A stretch of 64,000 bases of DNA, taken from a virus. Made by a program: the position numbers and the translations under genes. Below are positions 5,120-48,788 of this stretch, piece by piece; within the stretch, counting starts at the first letter, position 1; each line of letters begins with the position of its first letter. The DNA is taken from positions 1 to 64,000 of the IMG/VR virus record IMGVR_UViG_3300026484_000351. One strand, written 5' to 3'. The notes under the pieces were generated by a model that was not told where the DNA came from, searched no databases, and worked only from the letters and a program-made list of their open reading frames with translations.

Positions 5120-6142
5120 ATGACAGGTATATTTGATGAGTTAAAAAAAGCAAATAACAACTTAGAAATAGATGATTTGACTAAGGATAAACTTCTTAGT
5201 CAAATTGACACCCCAAAAAATCAAGAAGGCTTCTACTTAGACGCCTTTGAAAATGTAATTTCATTCAACGGAATTAGGCAATTAAAAAAACCCCACACAA
5301 AATTAAAACTTAACAAATATCAACAACAAGAAATTCTAGCATGTCATAATGACTATTTTTATTTTAGAAGAAATTATTGCAAAATTTTAACTAAATCTGG
5401 TATTGGGAGACCCGAACCAAGAGGTTATCAAAAACGGCTTGAAAATGATCTTGTACAAGGTGATGATGTTATAGCATTCTTCCCAAGGCAAAGCGGGAAA
5501 ACAGTTACCATTGCAACATATTTATTATGGCGAGCACTTACTTCTGAAAATATTAATATCGGAATAGCAGCAAATGTTATGTCACTAGCAACAGAAGTCC
5601 TAGATAAAATCAAGAAAATATATATTGAAATGCCTATTTGGTTACAACCTGGATTAATGAGTTGGAATAAAAGAAGTATAGAACTTGATAACGGTTGTAA
5701 AATCATGACAGCTGCAAGTAATTCAGATGCTTTTAGAGGGTACTCATTATCTATAATGTATGTCGATGAAACGGCCTTTATTAGAAACAATCTTTTTGAA
5801 GAATTTATGGATTCAGTTATGCCTGCTATGTCTGCTATTCAGGATAGCCAGGCTATTTTTTCGAGCACTGCTTCGGGTTTGAATCACTTCTACTGGATGG
5901 TAGAAGGCGCGAGAAAAAAAGAAAACGGTTATAATCTTTGTGAAGCAAAATGGCAAGAAGTCCCTCGTTTTCACAAAGATGGTAGACCAAAAACTCCAGA
6001 AGAATTTAAATCAGAACAAGTAGCAAAGAATGGACAGACTCATTTCGAACAAAATTTCGGTAATTGTGTGGGATATGATACACTTATAGATATAGAAAAT
6101 TTAGGAAGTATAAAAATAGGAGATTTATATAATTTGTTGTAA
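5120..6142 (+). CDS. Large terminase N-terminal half fused to a split-intein N fragment
   Basis: Residues 1-315 are the ATPase half of a T4 gp17-type terminase: Walker A PRQSGKT (122-128), Walker B IMYVDET (212-218), coupling motif STASG (249-253) and HFEQNFGN at the junction. Residues 316-340 (CVGYDTLIDIENLG...DLYNLL) are an intein N fragment starting with the nucleophile Cys; the frame then stops. The C half resumes at 7277. The very short 25-residue N fragment is the layout of the atypical AceL-TerL split intein. Protein trans-splicing should rebuild a packaging motor subunit of about 602 residues. Confidence 0.92.
   Translation: MTGIFDELKKANNNLEIDDLTKDKLLSQIDTPKNQEGFYLDAFENVISFNGIRQLKKPHTKLKLNKYQQQEILACHNDYFYFRRNYCKILTKSGIGRPEPRGYQKRLENDLVQGDDVIAFFPRQSGKTVTIATYLLWRALTSENINIGIAANVMSLATEVLDKIKKIYIEMPIWLQPGLMSWNKRSIELDNGCKIMTAASNSDAFRGYSLSIMYVDETAFIRNNLFEEFMDSVMPAMSAIQDSQAIFSSTASGLNHFYWMVEGARKKENGYNLCEAKWQEVPRFHKDGRPKTPEEFKSEQVAKNGQTHFEQNFGNCVGYDTLIDIENLGSIKIGDLYNLL
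6065..6139 (+). other. Split intein, N fragment (25 residues)
   Basis: It begins with Cys after N315 of the terminase and contains only intein block A (C-x-x-x-D-T...I-x-I-G-D-L). It closely follows the known AceL-TerL N fragment, which also starts CV and has 25 residues. Confidence 0.9.
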
Positions 6143-6230
6143 AAATAATTAATATTCTCATTAATTATTTGGATAGGAAAAACATAAGTTATGCTAAATT
6201 TGTAGATATAAAGATGAGAAATGGTAGAAT

Positions 6231-6238
6231 TATAAATA
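6231..6238 (+). promoter_or_regulatory. Possible late promoter for the intein endonuclease
   Basis: TATAAATA lies 44 bases before the endonuclease start in a spacer with no other frame. It could let the nuclease be made late, apart from the terminase. Confidence 0.35.
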
Positions 6239-6281
6239 TAGATAAACCCAAGTGTTAAATTCCAAAACGGAGAAGAAATAA

Positions 6282-7304
6282 ATGAAGATGTGTGTGGATT
6301 GTTCAAAAGAAATTAAAGCCAAAAATAAATCAAATATTAGATGTTATTCTTGTTCAAACAAAATAAGATACAAAGATAAAGAGCATCTTAAAAATATGAA
6401 AGAATCAATTAGAAAATCAAGAAAAAAAGAACTAAATTATGATGGTGATTTGTATGATTTAGATAAGCTTAAGGATGTTTTAAAAAATTTTGATATAAAT
6501 AAATATACAGGCTCAGGGAAAAACAGAACTTTTTATAAAAATGAACCCAAAATAATGTTTTCTTTAAAAAAGCACTCCAACCACCTTGCTTTGAAATATA
6601 GCTATATAAATAGATGTATTTTATCTGATTATACTTTAGTAACAAAGGGTATAGACTTGTGCATTTGTAGTTGCAAGAAAACTTTAAAATGGGATTATTC
6701 TAAAAAATCATTTCAAAAAGCACCAAAATGTTGTAAATTAGGACCTAACTCTATAGAACGCAAAATTTTAGAACATGGTGAAGAAAAGGGTAAAATTATT
6801 TATGAAGAATTTTGTAAAAAAAATGGGGAAGTTAGGAAGGGTTTTTTAAGTTTAGAATACTTTAAAGAGAAATATGATACCCAAGGCCAAGAAGAGTATG
6901 ATAAATATTGGCAATTTAATTTTTCTAAAAGAAAACAAGTAAATTTTAGTAAAATTAGCCAAGAATTGTTTAATAGCATAATCATAAATAAAAAAATAGA
7001 TAAAAGTTATGTTAGATTTGCAACTTTTAATGATAAAGGTGAAGTGAGAATTAATTTTAATAAAAAAGATAAAGAACTGATTGGTGAGTCAAGAGTTTGT
7101 ATGTATTTAGACTTTGTATATAAAGATAAAGTGATCGAATTTGATGGCGCTTATTGGCATAGAAATTCGGAAGAACATGACAAAATAAGAGATGAAATTC
7201 TTAAAAATAAAGGTTATAAAATTTTAAGGATAAAAGAAAAATATTATAAAAAAGATAAAAATAAGGAAATAGAAAAATGTTCAAACTTCTTGATAAACCC
7301 TTAA
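6282..7304 (+). CDS. Free-standing homing endonuclease inside a split intein, Vsr/PD-(D/E)XK-like
   Basis: 340 residues. The N terminus has a zinc finger (CVDC at 4-7, CYSC at 22-25) and a basic linker. A second Cys cluster (CICSCKK...CCK) lies near 127-150. The C-terminal 60 residues show the Vsr-like core: LDFVYKDKVIEFDGAYWH, then R-D-x-x-L-K-N-x-G-Y-K-I-L-R-I. Such nucleases are known between the halves of fractured split-intein genes. It overlaps the C-fragment gene by 28 bases. Its target is expected to be an intein-free terminase gene. Confidence 0.82.
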   Translation: MKMCVDCSKEIKAKNKSNIRCYSCSNKIRYKDKEHLKNMKESIRKSRKKELNYDGDLYDLDKLKDVLKNFDINKYTGSGKNRTFYKNEPKIMFSLKKHSNHLALKYSYINRCILSDYTLVTKGIDLCICSCKKTLKWDYSKKSFQKAPKCCKLGPNSIERKILEHGEEKGKIIYEEFCKKNGEVRKGFLSLEYFKEKYDTQGQEEYDKYWQFNFSKRKQVNFSKISQELFNSIIINKKIDKSYVRFATFNDKGEVRINFNKKDKELIGESRVCMYLDFVYKDKVIEFDGAYWHRNSEEHDKIRDEILKNKGYKILRIKEKYYKKDKNKEIEKCSNFLINP

Positions 7305-7594
7305 AAGTAAAGACACCTAATGGTTATAAAACCTTTACAGGAATACAAAAATATACAAAAAAAACTTATTTGTTAATCACTACTATAGGTGAAATAGAAA
7401 CAGCAGAGCTTCATAGATTTGTAGTAGATGGTAAAGAAATCTTTGCAAAAGATTTAAAGGTTGATGACAGTTTACAAACTGAAACAGGTCACACAAAAAT
7501 AAAAAAAATAATTAAAGGTCCCGTCAAAGATGTTTATGATTTAACTAATGTGGATGGAGAGATATATTATACTAATGGAATATTAAGTCATAAT
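7277..7594 (+). other. Split intein, C fragment (106 residues)
   Basis: It starts with its own ATG and ends LSHN before Thr. Length and motifs match the roughly 104-residue C fragment of AceL-TerL. Confidence 0.9.
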
Positions 7595-8458
7595 ACATTT
7601 TTAGGTTCTTCAGCTACTCTTGTATCGGGAACAGCACTTAAAAATATCACCCCTATGAAAGACGAAGATATAATTTTCAATTCATTATTTGACGGACTTA
7701 AAGTTTATCAAGAAGTAAAAGAAGGCCATAATTATATTTTAACTTCAGACCCTAAACAGGCTGGGATAGATAGTATAGGATTGCATGTTATTGATGTAAC
7801 AAATATTCCTTTTGTGCAAGTAGCATCTGCTAAACTAGATGAAAGTTTTTTAGTTATTCCTAATAGAGTATATGATTTAGGACATTATTATAATGATGCT
7901 TATGTTGTTCAAGAAAATAATATTGAAGCTAATCTTATTAATACTTTGCATGATCAACTGGAATATGAAGGTGAAATTTTTAGAGAAAGGAAAACTTCAG
8001 GTAAAGGTTTTAAGAATATTTGGGGCATCAGAACAACCACAAAAACTAAAAAAATGATGACTTCTTTTCTTAAAAAATTTGTTGAAGATGGTCTTTTAGA
8101 AATAAACGACAAAGCTACACTTGATGAGATGTTTAACTTTATAGAAAAGAAAAATGGAACTTATAGTGCAGAAGAAGGCTATAAAGATGACTTGGTTATG
8201 AGTTTAATGCTTGTGTTTGCACCATTTTTTGATATTAAAAATTGGGATAACTTCAAAGGGTTTAGTTCATTACTTGAGAAACGAGCTGGACAACAAGAAA
8301 AAGAAGAAAAAGAAACTGCTGAGTTTTTAGACTTAGGATTTGCACCTGATGATAATACAACTGTTTCTCCTTTTACTGAGGGTGCATGGGATGAAAATGA
8401 CTTCGGTACGGATGCAATGGAAATGTATCAACAAGATATGGACGATAGAGGTTGGTAA
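7277..8458 (+). CDS. Split-intein C fragment fused to the large terminase nuclease half
   Basis: Residues 1-106 are the intein C fragment: TPNGYKTFTGIQK, block B ELHRFVVDG..DLKVDDSL, and the C-terminal block YTNGILSHN. T107 is the +1 extein residue. Residues 107-393 continue the terminase with TFLGSSATLVSG and the RNase H-like nuclease domain; acidic residues D158 (SDPKQ), E217 (NNIEAN) and D304/D305 (YKDDL) fit the gp17 active site. Thr at +1 differs from Cys in AceL-TerL. Both halves must be made for DNA packaging. Confidence 0.92.
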   Translation: MFKLLDKPLKVKTPNGYKTFTGIQKYTKKTYLLITTIGEIETAELHRFVVDGKEIFAKDLKVDDSLQTETGHTKIKKIIKGPVKDVYDLTNVDGEIYYTNGILSHNTFLGSSATLVSGTALKNITPMKDEDIIFNSLFDGLKVYQEVKEGHNYILTSDPKQAGIDSIGLHVIDVTNIPFVQVASAKLDESFLVIPNRVYDLGHYYNDAYVVQENNIEANLINTLHDQLEYEGEIFRERKTSGKGFKNIWGIRTTTKTKKMMTSFLKKFVEDGLLEINDKATLDEMFNFIEKKNGTYSAEEGYKDDLVMSLMLVFAPFFDIKNWDNFKGFSSLLEKRAGQQEKEEKETAEFLDLGFAPDDNTTVSPFTEGAWDENDFGTDAMEMYQQDMDDRGW

Positions 8459-35302: not shown

Positions 35303-36166
35303 ATGGAAACAGTTTACGGAATAGATTACACAAAACCAGAAGTTATGTTACTTCAAGAAACAGGATTGGGTGTACCTGAAATGGCCGCAAGGACTTGTTA
35401 TGACTCTTTTAATGCATCAGAAAATGAATGTATACCGAGATTAAATAATGCCATTAAAGCTCAGGATCTGACAGCGGCAACTCATTATTTAACCGAAGTT
35501 AATAATATTGAACACTCAGAATTACTTGATACTTTAGCTTGGACTCACTTCCATCACAGCATACTAGAACATACAAATTTATCATTTTTAATTAAAGGCA
35601 CTTCTAGAGGGGTTCTTCAGGAGCATGCTAGACACAGAATCCAAAATATATCTGTAAGAAGTACAAGATACACAATGAGCGGAATTATTAATGCATTTGC
35701 TGCAACAGTTAAAGAATCTTCAGGAAAAAATGCTTTTATTAGTTTGGTTTTGCCAATGAATATGTTTGTGACTTCGGATGATAGTTATAACAGAATAGAA
35801 ATTGGTGGAATATTTGACAAATTGATGTATCAATATAGATTACTTGGTAGAGAAAAATTTATGGAGATAGCAGTAGCAAAATCTAGTTTAGATTATGTTA
35901 ATAGTACAGAGCCTTATGCAATTAAATTTCAATTACTTCAAGATGGTAAGAAAAAAAGAAATGTTGGAGATGCGCTTAAGCACATCGTCACGGATAACTG
36001 GAAGGTTGATATGATTGTTACCATGAACCTAAGAGGATTAAAAAATTATTTCAATTTAAGAGATAGTGGAGCAGCATTTTTTCAAATAAGATGGTTAGCA
36101 AAAGCAATGAAAGAAGTTACACCTTCAAAGTATTTGGATCTGATAGTAAGAAACAAAGGTAAATAA
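35303..36166 (+). CDS. thyX: FAD-dependent thymidylate synthase
   Basis: 287 residues with the ThyX signature RHRIQNISVRS at 110-120 (R-H-R-x7-S), preceded by HHSILEHTNLSF. It makes dTMP from dUMP with FAD and a folate, feeding the AT-rich phage genome. C-terminal LRGLKNYFNLR and FFQIRWLAKAM also fit. TATAAT at about 35279-35284 may be its promoter. Confidence 0.92.
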   Translation: METVYGIDYTKPEVMLLQETGLGVPEMAARTCYDSFNASENECIPRLNNAIKAQDLTAATHYLTEVNNIEHSELLDTLAWTHFHHSILEHTNLSFLIKGTSRGVLQEHARHRIQNISVRSTRYTMSGIINAFAATVKESSGKNAFISLVLPMNMFVTSDDSYNRIEIGGIFDKLMYQYRLLGREKFMEIAVAKSSLDYVNSTEPYAIKFQLLQDGKKKRNVGDALKHIVTDNWKVDMIVTMNLRGLKNYFNLRDSGAAFFQIRWLAKAMKEVTPSKYLDLIVRNKGK

Positions 36167-37080: not shown

Positions 37081-37461
37081 ATGATAATAGAAAAGAAAGA
37101 AGTTAAAACAGTATGTGATTGCTGTTTAAAAGAATTAACAGATATTGATATATGGGCAAATAACGAAAGTTTTCGAGAACTGTACTTAAAACGAACACAA
37201 GATAATATTGATTTATGCTATACTTGTGCTGGTAAAATATTTTATAGAGAAGTTCAACAAAAAGTTCCAACTGAAAAAATGCGGGAATGGATAAAAAGTC
37301 TTAGAAAAGTGGAAGGCTCAAACTTAGTTGAAAGTGCTGGTGAAACGGGAAATAGGGAGAATGACAATTGTTCAAAGGAAATATTAGTTAAATCTAGTCC
37401 AAACAGTTCAAGTAATTCATTAAAGTCAATTGATGACCCGAAAAGTATAAAGGATTTATAA
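37081..37461 (+). CDS. Zinc-finger-like protein
   Basis: 126 residues. CDCC at 12-15 and CYTC near 46-49 form a plausible zinc site; the last 50 residues are Ser/Asn-rich and probably disordered. Its stop overlaps the CYTH gene start. Confidence 0.58.
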   Translation: MIIEKKEVKTVCDCCLKELTDIDIWANNESFRELYLKRTQDNIDLCYTCAGKIFYREVQQKVPTEKMREWIKSLRKVEGSNLVESAGETGNRENDNCSKEILVKSSPNSSSNSLKSIDDPKSIKDL

Positions 37462-37934
37462 TGGGGATAGAAATAGAAAGAAAATTTTTAGTTAAAATGA
37501 AAAAAGGGCCAATGATAAGTAATAGAAAATATGAAATAACTCAAGGTTACATTTTAAATTTACCTGAAAAAGTTATAAGAATTAGAATATTTGATAATAG
37601 TACAGCTTATATAACTATTAAAGGTAAAAATGAAAATATGACAAGACCAGAATATGAGTATAATATTCCCTGCGCAGAGGGTGCAGAACTTATAAAAGTA
37701 ATGTGTACAGATATTATCACTAAAACGAGATATATATGCAATGTGAAAAATAGTAAATGGGAAGTTGATTTTTTCCACGGAGATAATGAAGGTTTAATTG
37801 TCGCAGAAATTGAGTTAAAAGATGAAGATGATCCTATAGATTACCCAGAGTGGATAGGAAAAGAAGTAACTGGCAAGAAGAAATATTATAACAATAATTT
37901 AATTAAAAATCCTTATAAAGATTGGAGTAAATAA
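37461..37934 (+). CDS. CYTH-domain triphosphate tunnel protein
   Basis: 157 residues. The signature EIERKFLV opens the protein, then ITQGYIL, VIRIRIFDNSTAYITIKG, a central Arg/Lys-Glu ladder, and EVDFFHG...LIVAEIELKDED. CYTH enzymes bind triphosphates in a beta tunnel; activities include triphosphatase, thiamine-triphosphatase and class IV adenylate cyclase. In a phage it may act on nucleotide or RNA 5' triphosphates. Genes on both sides overlap it by one base. Confidence 0.85.
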   Translation: MGIEIERKFLVKMKKGPMISNRKYEITQGYILNLPEKVIRIRIFDNSTAYITIKGKNENMTRPEYEYNIPCAEGAELIKVMCTDIITKTRYICNVKNSKWEVDFFHGDNEGLIVAEIELKDEDDPIDYPEWIGKEVTGKKKYYNNNLIKNPYKDWSK

Positions 37935-38176
37935 TGGAAGTTTATGCAGATAAACTAGGCATTCCACTAAATGTCGGAGATAGAGTTATAATAGCCAGTG
38001 GTGAAACACAAGATTCTTCTATTTATTTAGGAACAGTTAGTGAATTATCTGTATCAAGATATGGTTCAAAACAAGTTAAAGTAAAAAAAGATGGTGGTTC
38101 AATAAATAAAAGAGAACCTGAAGATGTTTTAAGTTTAGTTATTTATGGGAATAATTGTCCCGAAGTTTTTATATAG
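37934..38176 (+). CDS. Small beta-barrel-like protein with PE-type tail
   Basis: 80 residues. LNVGDRVIIASGE, YLGTVSELS and SKQVKVKKDGG look like a KOW/SH3-type barrel. It ends NNCPEVFI. It illustrates the likely common build of the PE-tailed genes: a small barrel plus the tail. Confidence 0.58.
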   Translation: MEVYADKLGIPLNVGDRVIIASGETQDSSIYLGTVSELSVSRYGSKQVKVKKDGGSINKREPEDVLSLVIYGNNCPEVFI

Positions 38177-38184
38177 GAGATAAT

Positions 38185-38526
38185 ATGGCAGATATTTTAA
38201 GTCAAGATGAAATTAATGCTCTTTTAGATATTCCTGATGAAAACTCAGGTGAACCAGATTTTGGTTCACCTGAGTTTAAAAAATTATCAGATGCTTTTAA
38301 CAAAGCATTTCACAAAGTATTTAAGAGAACAGATTTTTATAGAGAAAAAGTGGAACAGAGTGGTTATATTCCTAGAATCCGGGGAACAAATCCTAAAGAT
38401 ATGATGGACAGTTTAAAGTGCGAAGAAGAATATTTTCAGAGTACATTAAAGAATTATAAAAAATTTAAAGAATTTCACAAGAAATTTAAGAAGATAGCAG
38501 ATGAACAACCTGAAATTTTTATTTAG
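38185..38526 (+). CDS. FliM-N-like protein with PE-type tail
   Basis: 113 residues from the ATG after ATAGGAGATAAT; the frame from 38155 overlaps the previous gene. Its first 16 residues, MADILSQDEINALLDI, match the N-terminal peptide of flagellar switch protein FliM (SQ-x-E-I-D-x-L-L), which binds phosphorylated CheY. The rest is helical, is not FliM, and ends EQPEIFI. A 16-bp perfect hairpin lies just after the FliM-like part. Possible CheY sponge; inferred. Confidence 0.6.
   Translation: MADILSQDEINALLDIPDENSGEPDFGSPEFKKLSDAFNKAFHKVFKRTDFYREKVEQSGYIPRIRGTNPKDMMDSLKCEEEYFQSTLKNYKKFKEFHKKFKKIADEQPEIFI
38241..38277 (+). repeat. 16-bp perfect inverted repeat inside a gene
   Basis: AAACTCAGGTGAACCA (38241-38256), loop of five, then its exact complement (38262-38277). 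It encodes residues about 20-31 of the FliM-N-like protein. The strongest hairpin seen in the window. Confidence 0.9.
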
Positions 38527-41364: not shown

Positions 41365-42543
41365 CTATTCTATCCTAGCCAGTCTTAATGCTTCATTTAG
41401 TATGTTTATAGAAGCATTTATATCTCTATCTTCTTCAAAACTGCATTCAGAACATGAGTATATTCGCTCTTCGAGCGATAAACTCTCTTTTACTGAACCA
41501 CATCTTGAACAGGTTTTAGAGGAAGGATAATAAGTATCTATTCTAGATATACTAACTTGGTTTTCGTTAGCTTTATACTCTATTTTAGATACTAAATCAC
41601 TCCATGCTATATTAGATATAGCTTTAGACAATCTTCTATTTTTAATCATATTTTTTACTTGAAGACTTTCTAAACCTATAAAATCATATAGATTGATTAG
41701 TTTTTTGGATACCTGATGATTTATAGTGTTTCTTGAATTCTTTATTTTATTATGCACCCTAGCTACTTTTAATCTAGCTTTATTTCTATTTTTGCTTCCT
41801 TTCTTCTTTTTACTTAGTTTTCTTTGTTCTAATTTAAGTTTTCTTTGGTACTTATATGTTAATTTATGATTTTCTATAGTATATCCATCAGAACATATTA
41901 TCATATCTTTAAGACCTAAATCTATACCTACTTTCTTATTGGTTTTCTTTCTATTATTCTTTACTTCTATCTTATGTGTTATGGTTATTCAGTACTTATC
42001 TAGGTTATCTTTTTCTATAGTAAAACCTGTTATTTTACCTATATTATGGTTTGTTTTATGTTTCTTAAATTTTATTTTATGGTCTTCTTTAGTATAAGAT
42101 GACTTATTGCTTTTATTTAATTGTATATGGTTATCTTCTATTTTAACTCTAGAACCAGCCTTCATACCTATAGTCTTTTTAGATGTCTTTTTACTCTTAA
42201 ATTTAGGATATCCTCTATCTGGTTGTTTTATAAATTCCTTCATACCAAGATATAAATTAGATAAACTAGATTGTATAAAATCATTAGGTAATTTATTAAT
42301 AAAAGAATATTCTTCTTTTAATTTAGTACTAAAACCTACTATACCAGTTTGATTAGGTATCTTAGGTCTCACTTGACCTTTATTTTTGCCTTTTTCTATA
42401 GTGTACACACCAAAATAATTATCTTGTATCTTACCTAAAACATTATTATAGGTAAATCTATAGAGGTTAAATTGTTTATCTAATAATGCTTTTTGTTTAG
42501 CATTAGGATATAGTCTATATTTGTTTGTTCTTACTAATTCCAT
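41365..42543 (-). pseudogene. tnpB: TnpB RNA-guided nuclease with one in-frame TGA
   Basis: Two frames, 42543-41989 and 41988-41365, are in phase and separated only by TGA at 41991-41989 (after LDKY). Together they make a 392-residue TnpB: N-terminal RNA-binding part MELVRTNKYRLYPNAKQ, RuvC D in GIDLGLKD, E in FIGLESLQV, zinc finger CSRCG...CSEC, and D in DRDINASINIL. All catalytic residues remain. A TGG or other sense codon changed to TGA would explain it; a C-terminal start at MIICSDG would lose the first Asp. Confidence 0.82.
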
Positions 42544-42576
42544 ATTTAACCCCTTTATATTTATTTATACAATTAT

Positions 42577-43176
42577 TTATATAATATTATTTTTAAGATT
42601 TTCTTGTACAGATTTTAACATCTTTCTTCTATTACTATACATTTTCATACTAAAATGATGTATTATAGATATTAAATCCTGTGTTAATTCAGTTTGAAAA
42701 TCTTCTTCTTTGGTAAAATTTATATATACTATATCTGTTCCATAACTACTAAACCATTTTTCTATATAATTATAGCCAAATCTAGTAAGTCTATCTTTAT
42801 AAGAAATATATATAGTATCTATATTACCATTTTGTACTTCTTTAATAAGAGCATTAAAACCCTTCCTATCTTCATTCATTCCAGAAGCTATATCTTTATA
42901 TACCTTATCTACTATAATACCTTTAGAAGCAATAAATTCCCTTAATATTTTTTCTTGCTTTTCTAAGTCTTCTTTTTGTTTAGTATTACTTACTCTACAA
43001 TATATAACTTGATTTTTATCTTTGGGTTTTGTGAGCATTAAACTATCTATATCATATAAGAAATTCCTACTATTTAATTCTTTGTATTTAACCTTTCCTT
43101 GTCTTCTATAATTATTTAAAGTTTGACTTGTAATGCCCAAAATCTCTTTTATTTTCTTAGCGTTTATATAACTCAT
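42577..43176 (-). CDS. tnpA: IS607 transposase, serine recombinase
   Basis: 199 residues. N-terminal MerR-like helix-turn-helix (KKIKEILGITSQTLNNYRRQ), then the small serine recombinase domain: VIYCRVSNTKQKEDLEKQ with the nucleophile Ser, and YKDRLTRFGYNYIEKWF with the Arg pair. This order, DNA-binding first, is typical of IS607 TnpA. It appears intact, so the element could still move even with a broken tnpB. Confidence 0.88.
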   Translation of the reverse strand: MSYINAKKIKEILGITSQTLNNYRRQGKVKYKELNSRNFLYDIDSLMLTKPKDKNQVIYCRVSNTKQKEDLEKQEKILREFIASKGIIVDKVYKDIASGMNEDRKGFNALIKEVQNGNIDTIYISYKDRLTRFGYNYIEKWFSSYGTDIVYINFTKEEDFQTELTQDLISIIHHFSMKMYSNRRKMLKSVQENLKNNII

Positions 43177-43265: not shown

Positions 43266-43394
43266 ATGTTTATTATTGGAGAAAAAGGTCCGGCACCTCT
43301 TAAAGGTACTATTGCTTATGTTACTAATTATGATTTATGGATAAATTGCAATTTAGAAGAAATCCCTAGTAAATATCCGGAGGTATATATTTGA
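43266..43394 (+). pseudogene. Probable 3' part of a PE-tailed gene cut by IS607
   Basis: 42 codons: MFIIGEKGPAPLKGTIAYVT...SKYPEVYI, open upstream to the edge of IS607. It carries the PE tail. With the fragment at 41089 it could rebuild a protein of about 95 residues. It may also be translated alone, but the ATG has no good ribosome site. Confidence 0.45.
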
Positions 43395-43870
43395 AAATAA
43401 ATGAATTAAAAATAACTCACACCAATGGAGATTTATATTCCGGATATACGATTGAACTTAACAATATTACTAAATATTTTGAACACAATGAGAAATTTCA
43501 AGAAGCAGGAATGTTCACAACTAGAAAAATGAAACAACTTTTAGAGGACCCAGAATTCCTAGACTTTGTAATAAGTAATTACAAGTCTTCAGAACCAGTT
43601 GTTGATTTTGATTCTCTAATAGTAGAAAAGGGAGTATCAAAATCAATGCAGGTGCTATTTTATCGTTCTAGAATAGCAATGAATTATTTTGGAGTGATAA
43701 CCGAAATGTTAATGAAACTCCGAAATCGAAAAACGATTTTAATTAAACTAGAAGACCCCTTAAAAAACTTTAATATAGAAACAATCGTAAAACTACAAAA
43801 TAAAGAAGAAATGAAGGAGTTTTTTGATTATCAATATATTGAAAACAAATACCCGGAGATGTATATATGA
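43391..43870 (+). CDS. PE-tailed protein
   Basis: 159 residues with a TTG start inside the previous stop (ATTTGA), behind a strong GGAGG. Mixed alpha/beta with AMNYFGVITEMLMKLRNRKT; ends ENKYPEMYI. Function unknown. Confidence 0.6.
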   Translation: MKINELKITHTNGDLYSGYTIELNNITKYFEHNEKFQEAGMFTTRKMKQLLEDPEFLDFVISNYKSSEPVVDFDSLIVEKGVSKSMQVLFYRSRIAMNYFGVITEMLMKLRNRKTILIKLEDPLKNFNIETIVKLQNKEEMKEFFDYQYIENKYPEMYI

Positions 43871-44133
43871 AAAAAAGAGAAGTATTAAAAGGTGATTATG
43901 TTTTAATAAAAGACCGTAATGATATTCAGCATGTTGTAAGAGTAGATGCTGTTGTAAAAATAGATACGATAAAACCTTCAAAAAAAGTCCAAGCGTATGC
44001 AAGTACTATTATTAAAAGTATAGATAAAAGTAATCTTAATACCACCACATTTTATGATAAAGATGTACAACTAATATTAGGAGCTATAAATGCTCGAACA
44101 CTAGAAACAGAATATCCTGAGATATTTCTATGA
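43867..44133 (+). CDS. PE-tailed small protein
   Basis: 88 residues. GDYVLIKDRNDIQHVVRVDAV is barrel-like (KOW/SH3-type); ends ETEYPEIFL. ATGA overlap with the gene before and after. Confidence 0.6.
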   Translation: MKKREVLKGDYVLIKDRNDIQHVVRVDAVVKIDTIKPSKKVQAYASTIIKSIDKSNLNTTTFYDKDVQLILGAINARTLETEYPEIFL

Positions 44134-44399
44134 TTGGTAAATTTGTATTAATAAAAACAGATAATATTATTGAAAAAGGTTCGAAGCACTCAGAAGATCA
44201 ACCTTGTTATTTTGTGGTAAATATAATAGAAAAGAGTAAAATTGGCAGAGATTGGAAATCAAAAGTTCTTTGGTTTTATGATGTTGCATATAATGAATTA
44301 CATTTTTTTAAAAAAGATATATTGTTTGAATTTGAAAAAGAACCATCTTGGAGAGAGATGGAAAACATGGAAGGAACACATCCAGAGTACTGGTTATAA
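44130..44399 (+). CDS. PE-tailed small protein
   Basis: 89 residues. MIGKFVLIKTDNIIEKGSKH opens a barrel-like domain; ends EGTHPEYWL. It overlaps the previous stop by four bases. Confidence 0.6.
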   Translation: MIGKFVLIKTDNIIEKGSKHSEDQPCYFVVNIIEKSKIGRDWKSKVLWFYDVAYNELHFFKKDILFEFEKEPSWREMENMEGTHPEYWL

Positions 44400-44421
44400 A
44401 GGATTAAAAATAGTTTATGCA

Positions 44422-44742
44422 ATGGTAGATGACCAACTGAATATTTTAAAAATATATTCAGAAAAGGGTTTAGATGACATTAGAAAATTAAGAACTATCC
44501 ATGTAAGTAAATTTGAAAAATTAAAATTTAATGGAAATTATGGAAGTTCAACTGTTTTTCCGTTTTATGATATTAATGAGGCAAAAATAGTTACTGCTAT
44601 TAAACAGGTTCAGGGATTAAAGGAACAAGCAATTAATTATGAGAATAACGACTGGAAAATTAATGAAAATTTCAAAAGTATAGATAAAACTCAAGAGTGG
44701 TTGAAAAAGAAGGAAAAAATTTATCCAGAGTACTTCGTTTAA
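44422..44742 (+). CDS. PE-tailed protein, start uncertain
   Basis: 106 residues from ATG 44422 (MVDDQLNILKIYSEKG); the frame is open from 44242, but that part overlaps the previous gene. AAAGGATTAAAA lies 12 bases too far upstream for this ATG, so an unusual start near 44412 is possible. Ends KIYPEYFV. Confidence 0.5.
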   Translation: MVDDQLNILKIYSEKGLDDIRKLRTIHVSKFEKLKFNGNYGSSTVFPFYDINEAKIVTAIKQVQGLKEQAINYENNDWKINENFKSIDKTQEWLKKKEKIYPEYFV

Positions 44743-44749
44743 TCTTATT

Positions 44750-44771
44750 TTAATATTTATTATGTTATAAT
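44750..44771 (+). promoter_or_regulatory. Phage promoter, variant copy 10
   Basis: TTAATATTTATT then ATGTTATAAT; -10 box 44766-44771. Confidence 0.68.
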
Positions 44772-44801
44772 TATTATAGAAAAACACATAAAGGTTATAT
44801 A

Positions 44802-44936
44802 ATGACAAAAGCGATAAACAACTACAGAATAAGTATTAATTCAAATGACAGATTAACTGGAGAGTTTACAGGTGGAAAAGAATATTTTGAAACTGAAGCA
44901 GAAGCAGTGATAGTTTTTAATAAATTTGTTTTATAA
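44802..44936 (+). CDS. Small protein, possibly truncated
   Basis: 44 residues (MTKAINNYRISINSNDRLTG...NKFVL) after AAAGGTTATATA. Past the TAA the same frame reads ELAPNNNFLFIEKYI, and with one more A in the A run near 44983 it would continue NEILASFDTTGI and stop exactly against the next ATG. The present stop may therefore cut a gene of about 73 residues. Confidence 0.5.
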   Translation: MTKAINNYRISINSNDRLTGEFTGGKEYFETEAEAVIVFNKFVL

Positions 44937-45022
44937 GAATTAGCACCAAATAATAACTTTCTATTTATAGAGAAATATATAAAAATGAAATTTTAGCAAG
45001 TTTTGATACAACAGGAATATAA

Positions 45023-45643
45023 ATGATACATAATTTTTTAATAGAGTCTTTGAATGATATTGAAGGTATTAATAAAATACAGCATAAACTACAAGATACT
45101 TTGTTAAGACCAGCAAAAATCCCTAAGGGAACAGCGGCATTATATTTTAGTGCAAGTGAACTTTCTCGAATAGTTACTAAATTTTTAGATATTAAAAAGA
45201 AGTTTATTGAATTAGATTTATTTAAAGATGAGTTTGATAGATGTAATTATTTTAAAGTTTCTGAATTAGATACACTTACTTTAATAGAACATAATTTGAT
45301 GCTTTGGGATTTAAATTATGAAAGTTTATTTGCCACTTTAAAGTATGAAATAAACGATTTAACAGAAAGAATAAAAAGAGCACCATTAAATTGGTATAAT
45401 AAGCATGCTTATTTAATAAATAATGAGACTTATATTGACAAAAAATATTTTAGTATTTACAGAATAGTTGATAAAAATTGGGATACTTTAACAATCACCT
45501 TAGAATGTTGTAAGTATAGTACCCATTCGAAAAGTCTTTCAATAGATATAGTTAAAATTAAATGTGATAGTATTAGAGATATATATCAAGAACAGTTTTT
45601 AAGTGAAGAAATAGGGAAGATTTACCCCGAATGGTTTTTATAA
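45023..45643 (+). CDS. PE-tailed protein
   Basis: 206 residues, the longest of the group. Helical first 135 residues (LTLIEHNLMLWDLNYESLFA), then a beta-rich domain with NKHAYLINNETYIDKKYFSI; ends KIYPEWFL. Next to the VWA gene. Confidence 0.6.
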   Translation: MIHNFLIESLNDIEGINKIQHKLQDTLLRPAKIPKGTAALYFSASELSRIVTKFLDIKKKFIELDLFKDEFDRCNYFKVSELDTLTLIEHNLMLWDLNYESLFATLKYEINDLTERIKRAPLNWYNKHAYLINNETYIDKKYFSIYRIVDKNWDTLTITLECCKYSTHSKSLSIDIVKIKCDSIRDIYQEQFLSEEIGKIYPEWFL

Positions 45644-45652
45644 GGAGAAATA

Positions 45653-46996
45653 GTGGAAAAAGCAACAGTAGAGAAATTATATAACGAGCAGGATAGGGAA
45701 TGTATAGATTCCACCTTTGCTAATATGTTTTCTAGTCCAGCATACAGAGAAGATTATGTTTTTTATGCTCATATATTGGCGCAATGTAAAGTAATTATGA
45801 CAAGCGATGTTGATTTAGCAGGAGTAAATTTTACAATTAACAAGTATAACCTTTTTATTAATCCAGAAAGATTTCTTGAATTACCCCTTTTGGAAAGAAT
45901 GTCAGTACTTAAACACGAATCGCTTCATATTCTTTATGGGCATATTTCAAGAAAGGGAGACAGAAACCATAAATTATTCAATAACTCTTCAGATGTTGCA
46001 ATTAACCAGCTTATCACGAGAGAACATTTACCTGAAGGCTGTCTTTACCCTGATACTCTTGAAAAGGCTCTAAAGGAACAAGGTTATAAAATAAAAGTAC
46101 CTGAAATGCTTTCAGCAGAACATTATTATGATTTACTTCCTTCAGAAATAAAAGATAATGCCGAGAATGGACAATGTAATAGTGGAGAAGGAAATCCTCA
46201 AAATTGTGAAAAATGTGGTGGAGCTGGTAAAGAAGAAGACGGAAAACCTTGTAAACATTGTAATGGAACGGGTAAAGAATTCTACAAAGGTTTATTTAAA
46301 GATAATCCACTTGATGACCATAGCAAATGGAATGAGTCAGAAGGAGAATCTGACTTACAACAGGACATCACAAAAAGAATGATTGATAAAAGTATTGAAA
46401 AATCAAGAGGAAACACGCCTTCTCATTTAGAGTATTTTATGGAATTATGGGGGAAAAAAGCACAAATTAGTTGGAAAAAAGTTCTTAGAAATATCGCAAG
46501 TAATAAAAAAGCAAATAAAGTAACAACTATTATGAGAAAATCAAGACGGTTCCCAAATAGACTTGAAATTAGAGGCCATAAGAAAGACAAAATCTTTGAT
46601 ATTGTAGTTATATTAGATGTTTCGGGGAGTATGTCAGATAAAGAAATTATTACTGGACTGGCAGAAATTCGTGAAGTAGCAAAACTTACGGCAAGTACTG
46701 TTAAAATTATTCAAGTTGATACAGAAGTGCATGCAGTAGAGGATTTTACGCCAGGCAAATTTAATAGAAGTGCAGGTGGTGGAACAGAAATGCTACCAGG
46801 ATTTAGATACATTAAGGAGAATAAGGTATCGCATGATGCTATTATTTTAATTACAGATGGATGGATAGAGGATATTTCATACTGGGCAAAAGAAGGTGTA
46901 GCACCAAAATGTCCTTTAATGATTCTTAGCACTGAAGCAGATATTGATGTTTCAGGATACAGAAATTATAGATTTTTCAAACTAGATCAAGCGTAG
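45653..46996 (+). CDS. VWA protein with metallopeptidase-like N-terminal domain
   Basis: 447 residues, GTG start after AAGGAGAAATA. HESLHILYGH (88-97) is an HExxH zinc motif as in DUF2201-type VWA proteins. CEKCGGAGK and CKHCNGTGK near 183-206 form a DnaJ-like zinc knuckle. The C-terminal VWA domain has the MIDAS motif DVSGSMS near 325, with GGTEM and ITDGW. Together with the MoxR gene at 39483 it makes a MoxR/VWA chaperone pair. Possible clients are the PE-tailed proteins encoded around it (inference). Confidence 0.8.
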   Translation: MEKATVEKLYNEQDRECIDSTFANMFSSPAYREDYVFYAHILAQCKVIMTSDVDLAGVNFTINKYNLFINPERFLELPLLERMSVLKHESLHILYGHISRKGDRNHKLFNNSSDVAINQLITREHLPEGCLYPDTLEKALKEQGYKIKVPEMLSAEHYYDLLPSEIKDNAENGQCNSGEGNPQNCEKCGGAGKEEDGKPCKHCNGTGKEFYKGLFKDNPLDDHSKWNESEGESDLQQDITKRMIDKSIEKSRGNTPSHLEYFMELWGKKAQISWKKVLRNIASNKKANKVTTIMRKSRRFPNRLEIRGHKKDKIFDIVVILDVSGSMSDKEIITGLAEIREVAKLTASTVKIIQVDTEVHAVEDFTPGKFNRSAGGGTEMLPGFRYIKENKVSHDAIILITDGWIEDISYWAKEGVAPKCPLMILSTEADIDVSGYRNYRFFKLDQA

Positions 46997-47006
46997 GAAA
47001 AACATT

Positions 47007-47270
47007 ATGAATTATTATGAAAATGCTAATATGCAATTTGAAAAAAGAGAACCAATTAGATATTATTTTGATGGTAAAGATCTCAAAGGAATTTATAATA
47101 TAGATTCTGGAAAAAATCTAAAAAAATCTATTTTAAAAAGAAAATTCAAGATAGGCTCATTAAAAAGTGTTGATATAGCCGAATATAGAGAACTAGGATT
47201 ATTTCATAGTTATCATAAAAGTATTTCAAAAGAAAAGGCAGAAAAATTATATCCAGAATTTTTTATATAA
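47007..47270 (+). CDS. PE-tailed small protein
   Basis: 87 residues, basic middle (GKNLKKSILKRKFKIGSLKS), ending KLYPEFFI. Function unknown. Confidence 0.6.
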   Translation: MNYYENANMQFEKREPIRYYFDGKDLKGIYNIDSGKNLKKSILKRKFKIGSLKSVDIAEYRELGLFHSYHKSISKEKAEKLYPEFFI

Positions 47271-47279
47271 GGAAAAAAT

Positions 47280-47561
47280 ATGAGTTTAAAGAATATTAAA
47301 GTATTTAATCAAAATGAATATATTGGTAAAATTATCAAACTTCAAATGAAAGGTACTAACAATATAGGTTTTTATGAAGTTGTTAAATTTAACAGTTATA
47401 TATCTTGTAGATTAATTTATACTATTGAGAAAGGAACAATAAGAAAACAATTTAAAACTAATAGATGTGTCTTATTTGACATTAAAGATTTTTTTAATAG
47501 TGAATTCTTAAATTGTAAACCAGAGGAATTTGAAATTAAATACCCTGAATATTTTATATAG
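47280..47561 (+). CDS. PE-tailed small protein
   Basis: 93 residues, barrel-like start (YIGKIIKLQMKGTNNIGFYE), ending EIKYPEYFI, the clearest form of the tail. Starts nine bases after the previous stop. Confidence 0.6.
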   Translation: MSLKNIKVFNQNEYIGKIIKLQMKGTNNIGFYEVVKFNSYISCRLIYTIEKGTIRKQFKTNRCVLFDIKDFFNSEFLNCKPEEFEIKYPEYFI

Positions 47562-47569
47562 GAGAGAAA

Positions 47570-47785
47570 ATGAATGAATTAGATAAATATTTTAATAAAA
47601 AAATGTCATTCAAAGACATATTTACTAAAGATGGAAGTGGTTCTTTTAGTGAAGATTTTGATGTCCGTACTATAAAGGACAGAAAAATGGAAAATATAAA
47701 AAATTATATCAAAGAACATTATGATATGAGTTTGGATGAATTAGATGAATTTATAATGAAATATGAACCTGAAAGGACTGTATAA
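47570..47785 (+). CDS. Hypothetical protein
   Basis: 71 residues, acidic and helical, ending KYEPERTV. It lies in the PE-tail cluster but lacks the tail. The stop overlaps the next ATG. Confidence 0.55.
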   Translation: MNELDKYFNKKMSFKDIFTKDGSGSFSEDFDVRTIKDRKMENIKNYIKEHYDMSLDELDEFIMKYEPERTV

Positions 47786-48228
47786 TGGGTAAAATCTTAT
47801 ACGCAATTAAACCAATAGGTGTCACAAAGGGGTTTGGGCGAGTATATAACAAACAGTTATATATTGGTAAGTATGAAGTTATTAATGGTACTGACATTAA
47901 ATTAGTAGAAGTGCAGGACTTTAATAAAAATATAATTAAAAGACATTCATTTCCAGCGTCACTAAAATATGGCTCATACAATGGAATACAAACAGAAGAT
48001 GTTGGTAGTGAAAATATCTATTCTGGAATGCCCAACACCAATTCGGTAATATTATTTGTAACATTAGTCGAAGCCAAATTACAAAAATTAATAGATATAA
48101 AATATATTAAGATATATTTTGAAAAGGAACTAAGAAAACTTCAAGAAAGAGCAGAAAATAATCTACCTAAAAATATTGAAGAAATTTTTGAGGAATATAG
48201 TGGTAAATACCCGGAATATTTAATATGA
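47785..48228 (+). CDS. PE-tailed protein
   Basis: 147 residues. YIGKYEVINGTDIKLVEVQD is barrel-like and followed by a Lys/Glu helix (FEKELRKLQERAENN); ends GKYPEYLI. Confidence 0.6.
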   Translation: MGKILYAIKPIGVTKGFGRVYNKQLYIGKYEVINGTDIKLVEVQDFNKNIIKRHSFPASLKYGSYNGIQTEDVGSENIYSGMPNTNSVILFVTLVEAKLQKLIDIKYIKIYFEKELRKLQERAENNLPKNIEEIFEEYSGKYPEYLI

Positions 48229-48788
48229 TTAATTCAGGTGAGCATTTTGAAAATTATATTAGTCACAAAGATATTAAAATTTATTTTGATAACAATAAAG
48301 ATAAAACCCAAATGAAATTATTTACCTCTTATTATGGATATATAACTGTTAATGGCAGAAAAACATCCCTTCAAGAAGATTATAAAGTTGAACCAGTTGA
48401 AATTGTATTATCTGTAGAAAATAAAGAACTTTGTGACCCGTTCAGAAATATGGATAATCTTATGAATGGATTAGATGAAAAACATAATACAGGTTTAAGC
48501 TCAGATAGTTTTAAAAACCCCGAGTTGACAGAATGGCAACCTTTACCCAAAGATACATTAACCTATTTTGATTGGCATGTAACTTTAACAACTCAAAATT
48601 CAGATATAGAAATTGATAAAGGAATTATAGAAAGACTTAAATTTTTTCATACAATGGAACAGGCAGAAATGAATTATATTAAAATGATGGAATATAAATT
48701 TAAAGAATTAGGAATATTTGAAGCATTTGATAAATATAATGAATTATATAATTCATTAAGTAATAAATATCCTGAAGAATTTATATAA
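48225..48788 (+). CDS. PE-tailed protein
   Basis: 187 residues, overlapping the previous stop by four bases. Beta-rich first half, WQPLPKDTLTYFDWHVTLTT in the middle and a helical end; ends NKYPEEFI. Confidence 0.6.
   Translation: MINSGEHFENYISHKDIKIYFDNNKDKTQMKLFTSYYGYITVNGRKTSLQEDYKVEPVEIVLSVENKELCDPFRNMDNLMNGLDEKHNTGLSSDSFKNPELTEWQPLPKDTLTYFDWHVTLTTQNSDIEIDKGIIERLKFFHTMEQAEMNYIKMMEYKFKELGIFEAFDKYNELYNSLSNKYPEEFI

Follow-up and report, generated by a model that had tools for sequence, protein, structure and literature searches.

The N-terminal helix of FliM tethers phosphorylated CheY to the flagellar switch, and CheZ and other CheY partners use short amphipathic helices to occupy the same face of CheY. 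That viruses imitate short peptides of their hosts is already known. Asp12 of E. coli FliM, equivalent to position 11 of the phage protein described here (P0001), forms a salt bridge with Lys119 of CheY when the two are in complex (PMC7012829). FlaGrab (Gp047) is a Campylobacter phage protein that targets the host flagellum, as P0001 is proposed to do (PMC7099621, PMC4690887); however, it binds flagellin glycans externally and has no FliM-type N-terminal peptide. P0001 also differs from CheZ, because its peptide is N-terminal and of the FliM type and no CheZ phosphatase domain was detected in it (Pfam, E<=10). No earlier phage protein copying the CheY-docking peptide of FliM was found in the open-access literature, and a phage mimic aimed at chemotaxis output is new as far as could be checked.

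The window, i.e., the whole stretch of 64,000 nucleotides analyzed here, belongs to a 96,768-base IMG/VR record (G000). The gene for P0001 is one of several consecutive genes with the same orientation, and the following features are relevant to it:

35303-36166, + strand: ThyX; in another phage record (G419), a gene with a FliM-type start lies directly downstream of ThyX
37461-37934, + strand: CYTH-domain protein, 59% identical to the CYTH protein of record G417, where it is likewise one gene from the gene with a FliM-type start
38175-38179, + strand: ribosome-binding site AGGAG, spaced 5 nt from the ATG at 38185
38185-38526 (including stop), + strand: FliM-N-like phage protein P0001, 113 aa, from open reading frame and translation
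38185-38229, + strand: codons 1-15 of P0001, MADILSQDEINALLD, a FliM-type peptide (CheY-binding in FliM), assigned by 14/15 identity to Campylobacterota FliM and by alignment with PHROG 8774
38215-38217, + strand: AAT, Asn11, replacing the FliM Asp that contacts CheY Lys119 in E. coli
38230-38505, + strand: body of P0001, probably helical (low-confidence model), related neither to FliM nor to the Campylobacter phage family
38506-38523, + strand: PE-type C-terminal tail of P0001, QPEIFI

The full translation is MADILSQDEINALLDIPDENSGEPDFGSPEFKKLSDAFNKAFHKVFKRTDFYREKVEQSGYIPRIRGTNPKDMMDSLKCEEEYFQSTLKNYKKFKEFHKKFKKIADEQPEIFI, which begins with MADILSQDEINALLDIPDENSGEP and ends with EQPEIFI; an alternative in-frame start, TTG at 38155, is less likely than the ATG at 38185. 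A PE-type tail had been noted in the preliminary description, and this tail is indeed common to many small proteins of the window phage and of its relative G417. Many unrelated small proteins with such tails (PEYFI, PEWFL, PEYWL) are encoded at 43391-48788 and elsewhere in the window, and likewise in G417. The frequency of a late-promoter motif, TATAAATA, in the window was not above chance.

P0001 had no match in Pfam at E<=10. In particular, the FliM middle domain (PF02154) was absent both from P0001 at this threshold and from the whole 96.8-kb record, and the C-terminal SpoA-type domain of FliM was not detected in P0001 (Pfam, E<=10). The lack of a Pfam match and of a FliM domain in the record thus indicates that the body is unrelated to FliM. 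Weak matches to PHROG profiles were limited to phrog_31201 over residues 1-15 (E 0.015), which also matches PHROG 8774 proteins of Campylobacter phages at their start, and phrog_5804 over residues 30-104 (E 0.011). A protein scan of viral contigs gave no close relatives of P0001, phage records contained no relatives at the DNA level, and no relatives of P0002 were found in bacterial genomes. A single-sequence structure of P0001 was set aside (pLDDT 50).

The start of P0001 had been described as nearly the N-terminal motif of FliM, followed by an unrelated remainder, and both parts of this description held: 14 of the 15 residues of MADILSQDEINALLD match natural Campylobacterota FliM starts, and no FliM resemblance was seen after residue 15. 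In the suggested comparison with FliM of candidate hosts, the sole difference from MADILSQDEIDALLD over 15 residues was D11N. P0001 and FliM thus share the N-terminal placement and identity at 14 of the first 15 residues, whereas P0001 lacks the middle and C-terminal domains and carries Asn11 where FliM has Asp. We scanned 84,980 bacterial and archaeal genomes with the pattern MAxILSQ[DE]EIDALL and obtained at least 116 loci, all FliM among the matches listed: 111 of the 116 listed loci scored above 100 bits against C. jejuni FliM (start MAEILSQEEIDALLEVVDDDSDD), and the other 5 were FliM genes cut by the ends of stored DNA. FliM starts among these loci include MADILSQDEIDALLDVVDDEGDD, which is 14/15 identical to P0001 and is followed by an acidic stretch, as in P0001. 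When 4,957 start sites were scored with a FliM N-terminus matrix, P0001 ranked at the top with 27.2; the second site, a protein of a related phage, was the only other above 1.01, and the third scored 1.0. About 2e-6 such scores would be expected by chance in the window, an approximate figure since the matrix was built from pattern-selected FliMs. Judged by these comparisons, the resemblance of the P0001 start to FliM is not due to chance.

A viral counterpart of this start is present in long-studied Campylobacter phages. CP21_042, which starts with MAQILSQEEIDALLDDVEVP, was first seen as a weak match of P0001. An anchored pattern, MxxxLSQ[DE]EI[DN]ALL, scanned over 2.9 million viral contigs, matched 7 of them: five are the Campylobacter phages CP220, CP21, PC14, NCTC12673 and CPt10, and the remaining two carry one further phage, in which a FliM-domain gene is the direct neighbor. 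Relatives of CP21_042, aligned from residue 1, occur in 31 Campylobacter phage records representing three phage groups (Firehammervirus, Fletchervirus and the 35-kb phage DA10). They correspond to PHROG 8774, a family of hypothetical proteins, whose NCTC12673 member is gp149 (gene 149). Over 21 pairs in this family, residues 2-14 were identical at 9-13 of 13 positions (69-100%), while identity of the bodies fell to 24-33% between groups. Synonymous codon changes within the motif imply selection on the peptide, and stubs of 40-45 aa (F336, PT14_12670_16 and the second CPt10 copy) retain the peptide with almost no body. Loss of the motif from homologues had been named as evidence that would count against a role in CheY binding; in PHROG 8774, the motif is the best-conserved part. 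CPt10 (L009, L274) has two genes of this family, of which one is complete and the other encodes a Fletchervirus-type stub of 45 aa.

P0001 carries the N-terminal feature of this family, MAxILSQEEID(A/E/K)LL. Profile comparison (hhalign) aligned PHROG 8774 with P0001 over columns 1-15 only (E 3.7e-7, 80% identity), and the helical body of the family (~105 residues) was not found in P0001 by hhalign beyond these columns or by the PHROG search. This limited alignment points to two bodies with one peptide: the same N-terminal peptide is present on a small phage protein in both cases, but the bodies are unrelated by profile comparison and PHROG 8774 keeps the Asp. The body of the Campylobacter phage family was modelled as all-helical, and a Foldseek search with this model gave no significant match.

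In phage carrier state C. jejuni, motility was lost and cheV, cheA and cheW were lowered, which was explained by transcription and not linked to gp149 (PMC4534711). NCTC12673 needs motA and motB, and a phage mutant, MutC, infects non-motile cells; no link to gp149 was drawn in the former case and no gp149 change was listed in the latter (PMC8540345). Neither FliM nor flagella nor the motor switch is mentioned in the papers on CP220/CPt10, CP21 and IBB_35.

Wider scans revealed FliM-type starts on further phage proteins that are not FliM:

L267 (record G417): start MADILSQDEIDRLL
L272 (record G418): start MADILSQEEIDRLL
L273 (record G419): start MASILSQSEIDALL
L042 (record G003): start MANILGQDEIDALL
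L004 and L007 (records G001 and G002): start MRDILSQDEIDALL
L083, L292 and L285: MSDG-type starts

The bodies of these proteins are mostly unrelated to one another. G417 (290 kb) is related to the window phage, with several common genes and PE-type tails, and its protein has the same FliM-type start, Asp included. The bodies of this protein and P0001 gave 22% identity over 64 aa (E 0.004, from a very small set), and full-length BLAST aligned residues 1-24 only. G419 has ThyX and SmpB in common with the window phage. A syntenic relative of the window phage (L126) is without the P0001 gene, which is therefore dispensable. Several candidates were dismissed as unrelated: TQEEIDALL proteins (L073, L103, L108), terminases with weaker motif matches (L286, L293, L317) and HTH-like proteins (L282, L287). 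Full FliM in two viral records (L278, L290) was left out of the counts, as it may be host DNA.

Several phages with a FliM-type start also carry chemotaxis or flagellar genes. In two metagenome records, the gene next to that with the FliM-type start encodes a FliM-domain protein (L004:4965-5840, PF02154 E 2e-12). A CheW-domain protein (L272:3247-3657, - strand, PF01584 E 7e-9) is encoded 2 kb from the corresponding gene in G418. G417 (L296:1492-1866, L316:1480-2957) encodes CheY, flagellin and FlaG. Its CheY is a stand-alone protein of 124 aa with 62% identity to C. jejuni CheY; its best match was 54-62% in each of six Campylobacterota genomes versus 43-50% in four other bacteria, and it retains the phospho-acceptor Asp, Thr/Ser, Tyr and Lys as well as a KEKL segment with the Lys119 equivalent. 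The flagellin of G419 (L313:10286-11110, 274 aa) is without the middle part of host flagellins, and Campylobacterota flagellins are nearest to it. No flagellin was found in 50 control viral contigs, two of them longer than G417 and most shorter. Matches to DNA polymerase, ribonucleotide reductase and baseplate proteins in the sampled stretches of G001, G417 and G419 support their phage nature. Genes for CheY, CheW, FliM and flagellin were absent from the 96.8-kb record of the window, which may be incomplete.

The preliminary description had referred to phages of Campylobacter. Outside the window, the record encodes Hsp20, DnaK, GrpE and DnaJ in a row (G000:75486-79121; L243:11987-15622). This DnaK scored 756-844 bits against each of 11 Campylobacterota genomes, and none of the other genomes gave more than 707; in a wider sample, identity reached up to 70%. 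On these DnaK scores, the host is most likely a Campylobacterota bacterium, but not necessarily Campylobacter. The terminase of the window phage is T4-like, and its best matches include Campylobacter phages. An intein-like insert and an endonuclease-like ORF interrupt the large subunit gene (5120-8458). Inspection by eye also pointed to an IS607-like element in the window (41365-43176, - strand), made up of a serine resolvase and a TnpB-like gene that is split, and to a cluster of NAD salvage and NAD kinase-like genes in the phage (L243:3371-8576).

The reading that we consider moderately probable is that P0001 serves as a host-takeover decoy, whose copy of the FliM peptide would bind CheY and uncouple it from the motor. 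P0001 would be produced in the infected cell and present a free copy of the peptide, which would bind CheY, probably in its phosphorylated form, on the FliM-docking face. Bound CheY would be withheld from the motor by competition with FliM; with less switching signal at the motor, rotation would remain in the default direction of the cell. The basis of this reading is the identity to FliM and its specificity, conservation above that of the body, recurrence on unrelated bodies and the co-occurrence of chemotaxis and flagellar genes elsewhere; from these we infer CheY binding, competition and an effect on swimming. Stubs with little beyond the peptide fit a decoy. The preliminary description, which proposed sequestration of CheY or docking on the motor, is partly supported. 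Besides Asn11, the dispensability of the gene and the lack of chemotaxis and flagellar genes in the possibly incomplete record of the window weigh against the decoy reading. For P0001 itself, Asn11 may weaken binding to CheY, and its copy is perhaps a weak binder because the salt-bridging Asp is replaced. No FliM-type start with Asn at position 11 was present in 397 Campylobacterota genomes, and Asp is retained there in every other phage copy read.

The peptide could instead act as an adaptor that brings the body, as the effector, to CheY (or, for G417, to the CheY that the phage itself encodes) in order to dephosphorylate, modify or relocate it. Joining of the peptide to several unrelated bodies, the all-helical body of the Campylobacter family and the CheY encoded by G417 are compatible with this idea; however, no common fold or catalytic motif is recognizable in the bodies, the Foldseek search with the Campylobacter family model having given no significant match, and the 40-45 aa stubs do almost without a body, which makes an adaptor unlikely. 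We consider it a little less likely still that phages took the peptide from host fliM and that it now has a different target, such as a phage protein or a response regulator other than CheY. Asn11 of P0001 would agree with a changed target, as would several synonymous codon differences between phage and fliM, which also indicate that the phage motif is not a recent fliM copy. On the other hand, the full FliM motif has long been conserved, and some of the same phages carry chemotaxis or flagellar genes.

Two further explanations appear very improbable. Since [ST]xxEI is an ordinary helix N-cap, here followed by an amphipathic helix, the likeness could be fortuitous, and terminases are among the unrelated phage proteins that do show weaker N-terminal [ST]Q.EID.LL matches. 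Yet none of these weaker matches extends to MAxILSQ, a form that among the listed matches is FliM in bacteria, plus a few phages, and both the genome and the virus scans disfavor coincidence. Similarly, P0001 might dock as a FliM N-terminal fragment on the switch (C-ring) or disturb its assembly independently of CheY, and phages with flagellin, FlaG and FliM homologs do suggest a wider modification of the flagellum. FliM contacts the ring through its middle and C-terminal domains, however, and these are missing from P0001.

Beyond P0001, recurrence of the same start on unrelated proteins in other phages of such bacteria suggests that host steering is a target of phage interference. Whether Campylobacterota phages and some others possess a recurrent program of steering takeover, in which FliM-N decoys were repeatedly added to unrelated small proteins alongside phage CheY, CheW, FliM, flagellin and FlaG, appears to us evenly balanced. 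If CheY is bound, phages would rewire chemotaxis at its last step by means of a peptide on several unrelated proteins. This would give conserved hypothetical genes of long-studied Campylobacter phages (NCTC12673, CP220, CP21 and F341) a role that is open to testing, and it bears on the motility dependence of Campylobacter phages and on the loss of motility in carrier-state cells (PMC8540345, PMC4534711).
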